A stretch of DNA of 64,000 nucleotides from Chamaesiphon minutus PCC 6605. Its GTDB lineage: Bacteria > Cyanobacteriota > Cyanobacteriia > Cyanobacteriales > Chamaesiphonaceae. Made by a program: the position numbers and the translations under genes. The notes beneath the pieces were generated by a model. The model made no database searches, was not told where the DNA came from, and saw only the letters and a list, made by a program, of their open reading frames with translations. The DNA lies in the NCBI RefSeq assembly GCF_000317145.1, contig NC_019697.1, positions 5,282,886 through 5,346,885 on the forward strand. The letters are read 5' to 3'. Positions within the stretch are counted from its first letter, which is position 1, and each line of letters opens with the position of its first letter. Shown here one piece after another: positions 18,933 to 20,375 of the stretch.

Positions 18933-19107
18933 TTTAGCCTCCCAATTGATTATTTACGATTGACTCTCCAGTTAACTAGTCCGAAACGGTAGAAATGAAG
19001 CTACCATTTTTTGCCAACTCCCCGCTCCCCGCCAAAATAGTACCTAGATTTACGACGTACACTACTAGATACTTTATCTTGGTAAGTGATAGTTTCAATC
19101 GATCGCT

Positions 19108-19521
19108 ATGCGCGCCTTACCAGCAACTACCATCAAAATCGGTGAATTGTCGGCTAGAAGCCAAGTCCCCATTAAAACGATTCGTTACTATGAGGAGATT
19201 GGATTATTACCGCAGCCCGATCGAACCGAAGGTCATTTTCGATTATTTCCGCTGGAGACTGTTTCTCGCTTATTATTCATCAAACGTCTGCAATTATTGG
19301 GTTTGAGCTTGCAAGAAGTCAAAGAATGTTTAACCGTATTCGATCGGGGCGAGCTACCTTGTGCCGATCTGCGAGTTAAGCTAGAGAGCCATATTGAGGC
19401 GATCGATCTCCAAATTCAATCCATGTCGGCGTTGCGTCAGCAACTGGGAGAAATTCTCCAAGACTGGGATGAAAATCCCACACCCCAAGCGAATATTATT
19501 TGTCCAAATTTACAGACTTAG
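19108..19521 (+). CDS. MerR family metal-responsive transcriptional regulator
   Basis: 137 aa. The N-terminal MerR helix-turn-helix is intact (IKIGELSARSQVPIKTIRYYEEIGLLPQPDR). A long dimerisation helix follows from about residue 88 to 120. Cys74, Cys85 and Cys132 are present; Cys85 sits at the start of the dimer helix, like the metal-binding Cys of ZntR/CadR types, and Cys132 is in a C-terminal tail. MerR proteins twist promoters with a 19-20 bp spacer. Such a promoter lies just downstream, in front of the metallothionein-like ORF, which is its probable target. Divergent from mrpC. Confidence 0.85.
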   Translation: MRALPATTIKIGELSARSQVPIKTIRYYEEIGLLPQPDRTEGHFRLFPLETVSRLLFIKRLQLLGLSLQEVKECLTVFDRGELPCADLRVKLESHIEAIDLQIQSMSALRQQLGEILQDWDENPTPQANIICPNLQT

Positions 19522-19525
19522 GGGC

Positions 19526-19557
19526 TTGACTCTCCACTAGAGTGTAGATTGTAAGAT
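19526..19557 (+). promoter_or_regulatory. MerR-type promoter/operator upstream of the metallothionein-like gene
   Basis: -35 TTGACT (19526-19531) and -10 TAAGAT (19552-19557) are separated by 20 bp, longer than normal. Between them lies the perfect dyad ACTCT-N5-AGAGT (19529-19543). This spacer and dyad placement is the classic architecture for MerR-activated promoters. It overlaps the last bases after the merR stop (19521) and is 35 bp before the ATG at 19592. Confidence 0.7.
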
Positions 19558-19591
19558 GCGTTTATTCTCTCAATTGGCAGTACTTTAAGCT

Positions 19592-19744
19592 ATGACTACG
19601 ACATCAATGGTGTGTACTTGCAACCCCTGCACTTGCACAGTTTGTCTGTGTAGCACAATGGTAAAAAATAATTGTTGCTGTACCCCCAAACAGACTACTG
19701 ATAACTCATCGGATGCGGCTAGCTCGATCGATACCAACAGTTAA
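19592..19744 (+). CDS. metallothionein-like Cys-rich protein (50 aa)
   Basis: 50 aa with nine Cys and no His. The cluster reads CTCNPCTCTVCLC (positions 8-20) and then CCC (28-30), followed by a Cys-free polar tail. The N-terminal pattern resembles the first half of cyanobacterial SmtA-type metallothionein (CACEPCLC), but the second, zinc-finger half of SmtA is absent. It would bind soft metal ions (Zn, Cd, Cu). The upstream MerR-type promoter and adjacent merR gene support metal-inducible expression. No Shine-Dalgarno is obvious. The ORF is below common length cutoffs and easily missed. Confidence 0.75.
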   Translation: MTTTSMVCTCNPCTCTVCLCSTMVKNNCCCTPKQTTDNSSDAASSIDTNS

Positions 19745-19775
19745 ATTAATTAATAATTATTAATTAATAATTGGG

Positions 19776-19810
19776 TTTTTAGGGTGGGGTTTAAATCCCC
19801 ATCCTAAAAA
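19776..19810 (+). terminator. hairpin after the metallothionein-like gene
   Basis: TTTTTAGGGTGGGG pairs with CCCCATCCTAAAAA (one G-T pair) around a short AT loop. It lies 31 bp past the stop at 19744. The T run is on the 5' side, so it could also act on the opposite strand. Confidence 0.55.
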
Positions 19811-19822
19811 CGATTCACCTAA

Positions 19823-20274
19823 GAGGATGTCTGAAAACTCAATTCCGTTAAGCTTAAACCCTAGTACATCCCCCCTATCCCCCCTTAAAAAGCTACCGTG
19901 TATACACAAGTCTGATTGACTTCGTTTCTAGATCTAAATCCCCCAAACCCCCTTAAAAAGCTTGCTCAGATCCGGTCAAAGTCCCCCTTTTTAAGGGGGA
20001 TTTAGCGGCTCCCGTAACTCCTTTGGAGTGGCTGCGCCAACGTCGGGTTCCCCGACGGATTAGGGAGACAAGACAGGGGGATTTCTAGGGTTTTCGCTTC
20101 CCTCCAGACTTGTGTATACACGGTAGCTTTTTAAGGGGGGAACCGACTCTTAGTCCCCCTTTTTAAGGGGGATTTAGCGGCGCATCGAACGGGAGGTTCC
20201 CTCCCGTTTGTGTGCGACAAGACAGGGGGATTTACCCACTGCAAACGAAGCAATTAGACTTTTCAGACATCCTC
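19823..20274. mobile_element. 452-bp MITE (non-autonomous, IS5-like ends) with nested repeats
   Basis: Terminal inverted repeats: GAGGATGTCTGAAAA at 19823 and its exact complement ending at 20274 (15-16 bp). Both ends are flanked by TAA (19820-19822 and 20275-20277), consistent with a 3-bp target duplication as in the TNA-target IS5-type elements. There is no transposase gene. Inside is a second perfect 36-bp inverted repeat (19879-19914 and 20105-20140) and a pair of direct repeats beginning AGTCCCCCTTTTTAAGGGGG at about 19979 and 20152. The inner pair suggests one element inserted within another. Confidence 0.75.
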
Positions 20275-20375
20275 TAAAGGAGGGGAATTTAGACCCCTTA
20301 TTCTCGTTAAGCAGTAGATCTGAGGTTGCGATCGTCACCTCATATCTATTATAAATTTGCCAACAGGATTGAAAA

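Follow-up and report, generated by a model that had tools for sequence, protein, structure and literature searches.

A MerR regulator gene paired with a metallothionein-like gene in two distant cyanobacteria

We found that a merR gene, a MerR-type promoter and a 50-codon cysteine-rich open reading frame (ORF) lie in direct succession in the window (the whole 64,000-nucleotide stretch of Chamaesiphon minutus PCC 6605 analysed here), and that all three are conserved together in Cuspidothrix. At the level of sequence, this bears out the original prediction of a MerR-type promoter ahead of a metallothionein-like ORF. What the sequence itself shows is the gene pair with its promoter, a conserved operator, a patchy distribution and, in both genes, non-synonymous divergence well under the synonymous divergence. 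We think it probable that the pair is a two-gene metal-buffering cassette, in which a MerR switch would drive an all-thiolate metallothionein; the cassette would be accessory, and Cu(I) is its likeliest signal.

The window belongs to a cyanobacterial chromosome of 6,284,095 bp (C1 of genome G000). There the module is flanked by an mrp-type antiporter cluster and a kefB-like antiporter, both on the minus strand and both named by reading their translations. Its features are as follows.

18960 to 18981, plus strand: further MerR-type site ahead of merR, TTGACTCTCCAGTTAACTAGTC, differing from the operator pattern at 3 positions and degenerate in its right arm
19108 to 19521, plus strand: merR, encoding a metal-type MerR regulator of 137 aa with probable ligand cysteines C85 and C132 (GELPC ... 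IICPN)
19526 to 19557, plus strand: MerR-type promoter, -35 TTGACT at 19526-19531, 20-bp spacer, -10 TAAGAT at 19552-19557
19531 to 19548, plus strand: predicted operator dyad, TCTcCAC-N4-GTGtAGA, centre 19539.5
19592 to 19744, plus strand: metallothionein-like gene, 50 aa with nine Cys; homologue at L147:3503-3661

The merR gene with its Pfam MerR domains, the TTGACT-N20-TAAGAT promoter and the 50-codon ORF with nine cysteines are present as predicted.

A cysteine-rich small gene and its counterpart in Cuspidothrix

The small protein is 18% cysteine. Its nine cysteines form three CxC pairs and one CCC in the motif C-x-C-x2-C-x-C-x2-C-x-C-x7-CCC, and it contains no histidine and no aromatic residue. 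Under 10 kDa, high in cysteine, with CxC and CC motifs and free of aromatics, it fits, on composition, a metallothionein in the broad sense. In 6 Mb of simulated DNA (order-3), none of 38,907 ATG ORFs of 25-90 aa had at least nine Cys and at least 15% Cys, and the small ORF was the sole one of 322 ATG ORFs in the window to do so. The same criterion was satisfied by 32 frames in 464,575 bases of fetched loci, a figure that is no background rate, as these loci were partly picked for Cys-rich genes; on inspection they were SmtA proteins, Csp-like copper proteins, the window ORF and one odd frame in L021. The only Pfam line for the ORF at E up to 10 was a chance-level one (Mg_chelatase, E 6.9), NCBIfam gave no match, and the best PDB line was an unrelated enzyme (E 1.3). 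The small metallothionein-like family is absent from Pfam and NCBIfam.

The regulator led to a counterpart. Ten aligned MerR proteins (A1) served as the query for a scan of one genome per species (84,980 species); the collection scan, which covers many draft genomes, used two peptide patterns, so that distant or pattern-lacking relatives escape it, and the best 80 of 329 loci were kept. Among these 80, one close relative was found, the MerR of Cuspidothrix issatschenkoi CHARLIE-1 (L147), at 80% identity, with the next best at 58-60%. L147 and a match in G714 are the same contig, and they count as one second genome, not two. An 83-row tree groups the window and Cuspidothrix MerRs with 100/100 support; it has few columns and leaves many of the remaining forks open.

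Right behind the Cuspidothrix merR we found TTGACT-CTCCACTCAGGTGGAGATTG-TAAGCT, again with a 20-bp spacer, and then a small ORF, MTTQSIGCTCSPCNCSPCTCSSCTCSPCTCTVCQCGTTNQNECGCNSKNTTK, of 52 codons with 14 Cys and six CxC pairs, compared with three in the window. The two promoters share 27 of 32 bases, compared with 19/32 for the next best placement in L147. Conservation extends past the promoter, with 22 of 34 bases identical (with gaps) between the -10 and the ATG, and the gap from merR to the -35 is 4 bases in the window and 27 in Cuspidothrix. The MerR proteins are identical at 107 of 134 residues (dN 0.13, dS 2.4) and the small proteins at 22 of 37 aligned residues (dN 0.36, dS 2.2); with dS near saturation and the small-ORF alignment protein-guided, the dN/dS ratios are rough. 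Shuffles with the cysteines held fixed reached the small-ORF score in 6 of 5000 cases, and the homology of these two ORFs, taken alone, rests on low-complexity sequence. Judged from these alignments, synonymous sites are nearly randomised, and the frame, the cysteines and the promoter are retained. Because a distant cyanobacterium shares both the gene pair and its control site, the 50-codon ORF is very probably genuine, not a frame that arose by chance.

Regulator, operator and the likely metal

The window MerR matched Pfam MerR_1 (1.1e-16) and MerR-DNA-bind (3.2e-16), and PF13411, PF09278 and PF00376 all exceeded their cut-offs. No NCBIfam equivalog reached its cut-off; the top-scoring model was CadR-PbrR (96.9 against a cut-off of 151.45), followed by MerR(Hg) (87.8/150.85), CueR (75/147.4) and ZntR (66.9/167.95). 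C85 and C132, in the motifs xPC and [IL]CP, were both present in all 142 related MerR loci (125 distinct frames, some loci being the same genome from two collections). No cysteine lay between the two in 138 of these loci, and one did in the other 4. Aligned with solved sensors, C85 matches a cysteine of CadR, of 4ua1 (which we take to be a Bacillus MerR) and of 5gpe (presumably a PbrR relative), and the further cysteine of 4ua1 and 5gpe is replaced by a tryptophan in the window MerR. By its domains, its conserved cysteines and its target promoter, the protein is a predicted metal-type MerR regulator.

The dyad ACTCT-N5-AGAGT that had been proposed within the spacer is literally present at 19529-19543, but it lies off the spacer centre and is absent from the Cuspidothrix homologue; we rejected it as the operator on both counts. 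A disrupted frame or dyad in homologous regions had been named as a sign against the prediction; in Cuspidothrix this dyad is not kept, but frame and promoter are. The best dyad has the same centre in both promoters, between bases 14 and 15 when counted from the T that opens the -35 box. It reads TCTCCAC-TCAG-GTGGAGA in Cuspidothrix, where the arms are perfect, and TCTcCAC-TAGA-GTGtAGA in the window, with one mismatched pair and a half-site unlike the genome's other operators.

Genome-wide, the operator-type pattern TTGACTCTCCAGTNNACTGGAG gave 19 matches with up to 3 mismatches, at 16 places of which three were matched on both strands, and the reversed-pattern control gave 0. Two of the 19 flank the window merR. 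The upstream one, at 18960-18981, has no -10 at 20-bp spacing and no counterpart in the corresponding gap of the same-genus genome G001, and it is possibly a decayed autoregulatory site. The genome's other MerR operators have the same centre (CTCTAGT-TG-ACTAGAG), and many have a 20-bp spacer before a -10-like hexamer. Nearby genes are of the Csp-like, DUF305 or flavodoxin-like kind (DUF305 tested in one). At least one site of the general operator type (up to 4 mismatches) was found in 94 of the 142 related loci, a count in which palindromic sites are often included on both strands.

The gene context of related MerRs bears on the metal. Seven annotated plasmid loci were opened, hand-picked among 20 listed matches of 4,913 matching records, and in six of them a cupredoxin-domain protein and a heavy-metal P-type ATPase lie beside the related merR, joined in two of the six by a four-helix copper-binding protein. 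The seventh carries RND efflux and glutaredoxin genes, and its MerR is 60% identical to that of Cuspidothrix. The MerRs from clear-cut copper loci share about 50% identity with the window or Cuspidothrix MerR; nearer relatives (55-60%) adjoin DUF305 or unknown genes, or RND efflux with glutaredoxin. Individual neighbours include a DUF305 protein (L023), a glutaredoxin-like start identified by reading (L074), a Csp-like protein next to a MerR of 50% identity (L084) and, in Microcystis, an unknown secreted-looking protein (L064). Because relatives of the MerR often sit with copper genes, Cu(I), perhaps also Ag(I), appears to be the likeliest signal.

It is possible, if rather unlikely, that the same module answers instead to Hg(II) or a divalent metal (Cd, Pb or Zn), which the small protein would then detoxify. 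The alignment of C85 with the cysteines of CadR, 4ua1 and 5gpe and the top rank of the CadR-PbrR model, below cut-off as it is, would suit such a signal. In addition, the Synechocystis MerR Slr0701 is reported to respond to mercury and to bind upstream of its own gene (PMC6741143). That report would point away from copper, for a MerR only putatively of the two-cysteine group. Against this stand the tryptophan in place of the further cysteine of 4ua1 and 5gpe, the lack of a cysteine between the conserved pair in nearly all related loci (138/142) and the copper-type neighbours in six of the seven plasmid loci.

Two other groups of merR loci were observed. In ten loci (L064-L073, assigned to Microcystis by matching contigs) merR is directly followed by a gene for a 406-aa protein with a signal-like start, a candidate metal protein that had no Pfam match above cut-off where tested (L064). 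In the genome of the window itself, other merR genes are gathered in clusters rich in operator sites (L120-L132 and L135-L138, on C1 near 1.74 and 2.00 Mb and on C3), accompanied by Csp-like Cys-rich proteins and DUF305-type and flavodoxin-like genes, with similar copies on C1 and C3. We describe these clusters as an apparent large, partly duplicated copper-type regulon.

Likeness to SmtA and proposed mechanism

The original prediction took the ORF for a half-length, SmtA-like protein whose second zinc-finger half had been lost or never existed. Elsewhere in the same genome we found a complete smtA of 55 codons followed by an ArsR-like gene (named by reading its translation), and PF02069 matched only that locus (E up to 0.001); even with E values up to 10 allowed, the small ORF did not match this model. 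'Half-length' does not describe an ORF of 50 codons next to an SmtA of 55. The small protein has neither histidine nor the C-terminal zinc-finger part, and its C-terminus is CCCTPKQTTDNSSDAASSIDTNS. Loss of a zinc-finger half is not supported either, given the missing PF02069 match, the full-length smtA retained in the genome and a Cuspidothrix homologue that extends by CxCxx repeats.

The SmtA likeness itself held for one of the two proteins. Residues 2-26 of the window protein align without gaps to residues 3-27 of the genome's own SmtA, with 11 of 25 identical, and the resemblance goes beyond cysteines: shuffles with fixed cysteines did as well in 0 of 2000 cases against the own SmtA and in 2 of 2000 against an SmtA set (6 of 2000 in a repeat). 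The Cuspidothrix protein shows no such likeness (1422 of 2000 shuffles as good). Third codon positions are identical at 9 of 25 between the small ORF and the own smtA, and the small ORF does not look like a recent half copy of it. The likeness may be partly a coincidence, or else a trace of SmtA origin kept by the window ORF but gone from its homologue with the expanded repeats. A truncated or diverged N-terminal half of SmtA captured by a MerR promoter would explain the ungapped match and the rarity of equally good shuffles; we regard this as unlikely, as the homologue has no SmtA likeness beyond cysteine spacing and grows by CxCxx repeats, and the window ORF matches no PF02069 and carries no histidines.

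For the MerR-metallothionein cassette, we propose a mechanism that, like the metal binding and the metal, draws on known MerR and metallothionein biology. A MerR dimer would sit on the over-long 20-bp spacer behind its own gene and keep the promoter off. Binding of a thiophilic metal to C85 and C132 would lead MerR to untwist the spacer, and RNA polymerase could then make a short mRNA for the 50-residue all-thiolate metallothionein. This protein would bind the metal in a cysteine cluster, both protecting the cell and ending the signal. The pair would be accessory and perhaps mobile, supplementing the genome's own smtA and the ArsR-like gene beside it.

The peptide might instead be a metal carrier, or set the sensitivity of MerR or of an exporter, without acting as a bulk buffer. 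It has only nine cysteines, is paired one-to-one with a regulator and comes in a module without a transporter gene, but CxC repeats and a change of repeat number between members better fit a storage thiolate cluster, and we hold this role to be improbable. A chance frame behind a promoter that makes a small RNA or is idle would account for the lack of a family match and the orphan status in single-sequence searches, but is very hard to reconcile with a homologous ORF that keeps start, motif and frame downstream of a conserved promoter, with non-synonymous change well below synonymous change and with the absence of any such frame from the 38,907 simulated ORFs.

Distribution and comparison with known systems

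A MerR of the window type was found in none of eight other genomes of the genus or two other family members (E up to 1e-20); relaxing the threshold to 1e-15 brought up two distant MerRs in one of these genomes, G003. In G001 the mrp and kefB-like genes lie about 160 bp apart with neither merR nor a Cys-rich ORF between them, different genes flank mrp in G003, and an mrpC-like query had no match in the other eight genomes (E up to 1e-10). Among 388 genomes of the order, no close MerR was found besides the window's own, the best others being 58-59% identical. Of 291 genomes drawn around Cuspidothrix, four had a match at E up to 1e-45, namely Cuspidothrix (80%) and three at 58-59%. Inspection of Cys-rich frames found the pair of merR and CxC-repeat ORF in one of the 80 loci kept from the collection scan (L147; best 80 of 329), in the window alone among 30 loci and in none of 28 in a second set. 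L188, L195 and L224 have 7-Cys frames without a CxC repeat.

A small-ORF sequence search, the route suggested by the original prediction, did not reveal relatives: among the rows examined, single-sequence searches gave no in-frame small Cys-rich gene. The window ORF gave 75 pattern stretches in genome contigs, none confirmed. Against 60 relatives (E up to 1) it gave 46 other rows, of which the 19 examined were frames in or across other genes (e.g. ribosomal protein S1-like and clpX-like) or the SmtA N-terminus. Against 388 genomes of the class (E up to 0.01), none of 12 other rows was a small Cys-rich gene in frame. A profile of two small-ORF sequences, run against 388 genomes of the order, gave four weak other rows, three of them with internal stops. 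The Cuspidothrix ORF had no match among plasmids by BLAST, whose low-complexity filter may mask the query, and its 17 stretches in viral contigs were not confirmed. The small-protein family has two known members, and these results show that genes of this kind, though overlooked by family models and single-sequence search, can be reached via regulator and promoter.

The patchy distribution would fit gain of the module by transfer; loss in the other genomes may explain it instead. The merR-metallothionein pair is perhaps a rare mobile module, with mobility, too, drawn from what is known of such systems. A TnpB-like frame (assigned by reading its translation) lies immediately upstream of the Cuspidothrix merR. 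The G+C content of the module (0.41-0.45) is not unlike that of its surroundings (0.43-0.51), and composition thus gives no support for recent transfer. A terminator scan found no intrinsic terminator behind the small ORF, and an 18-nt inverted repeat (89%) lies at 19775-19811. Further on, in 19822-20275, an outer pair of inverted repeats measures 19 nt (95%) and an inner, perfect pair 37 nt; with 30-nt perfect direct repeats as well, this stretch looks like a MITE or a composite of repeats. Two Pseudomonadota bins, a gammaproteobacterium (L197) and a Moraxellaceae bin (L225), carry MerRs that fall among cyanobacterial rows of the tree, by either transfer or bin contamination.

In a bolder reading, to which we give tentative credence somewhat short of even, the two small proteins would found a new family of cyanobacterial copper thioneins with a variable number of CxCxx units, carried on a mobile merR-metallothionein cassette as a self-contained Cu(I) switch-and-sponge beside the host SmtA system. 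To our knowledge, the cyanobacterial metallothioneins otherwise known are SmtA-type and under ArsR-family repressors. In the open-licence literature, nothing linked Chamaesiphon or Cuspidothrix with metallothionein, and no title among the matches listed concerned a MerR-controlled cyanobacterial metallothionein. If the proposal is true, cyanobacteria would have a second way of building metal buffers, based on a short metallothionein that MerR activates and that varies in repeat number, and the pair would be a ready-made compact sensor-plus-sink module.

SmtA/BmtA proteins with SmtB/AzuR regulators (PF02069; Synechococcus SmtA, Anabaena NmtA) are likewise small, cyanobacterial and Cys-rich, with nine cysteines in the own SmtA too, and they share the N-terminal C-x-C-x2-C-x-C-x-V-x-L spacing with the window ORF. 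In contrast to them, the window ORF lacks the PF02069 match, histidine and the zinc-finger part, has an extra CLC and CCC, and stands behind a MerR-type promoter instead of an ArsR-type repressor site. MymT, the mycobacterial copper metallothionein, is regulated by RicR of the CsoR family, which differs from the window MerR. MymT is described as a tiny, Cys-rich, non-annotated ORF product predicted to bind up to six Cu(I) (PMC7558416), and the window protein is like it, by description only, in being tiny and Cys-rich. NmtA is controlled by AzuR (PMC8790569).

Cyanobacterial copper MerR loci with Csp-like proteins belong to the same MerR subgroup or operator type and have a Cys-rich protein nearby, but the Csp-like proteins examined in full are annotated four-helix bundles of about 110-120 residues, whereas the window protein has 50 residues and CxC repeats. 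Slr0701 of Synechocystis is likewise a cyanobacterial MerR with a conserved inverted-repeat site, whereas its target is the mercuric reductase MerA, encoded elsewhere (PMC6741143); the word metallothionein has 0 occurrences in the main text of that paper. The nearest precedent that we met for a MerR-controlled metallothionein-like protein is CadR with Zrd in Pseudomonas aeruginosa, where a metal sensor of the MerR family switches on a Cys-rich protein likened to metallothioneins by its authors (PMC12301328). Zrd is described there as a zinc-ribbon protein with two predicted Cys4 sites, whereas the window encodes a CxC-repeat protein whose gene adjoins its own merR, of another, unnamed subgroup.
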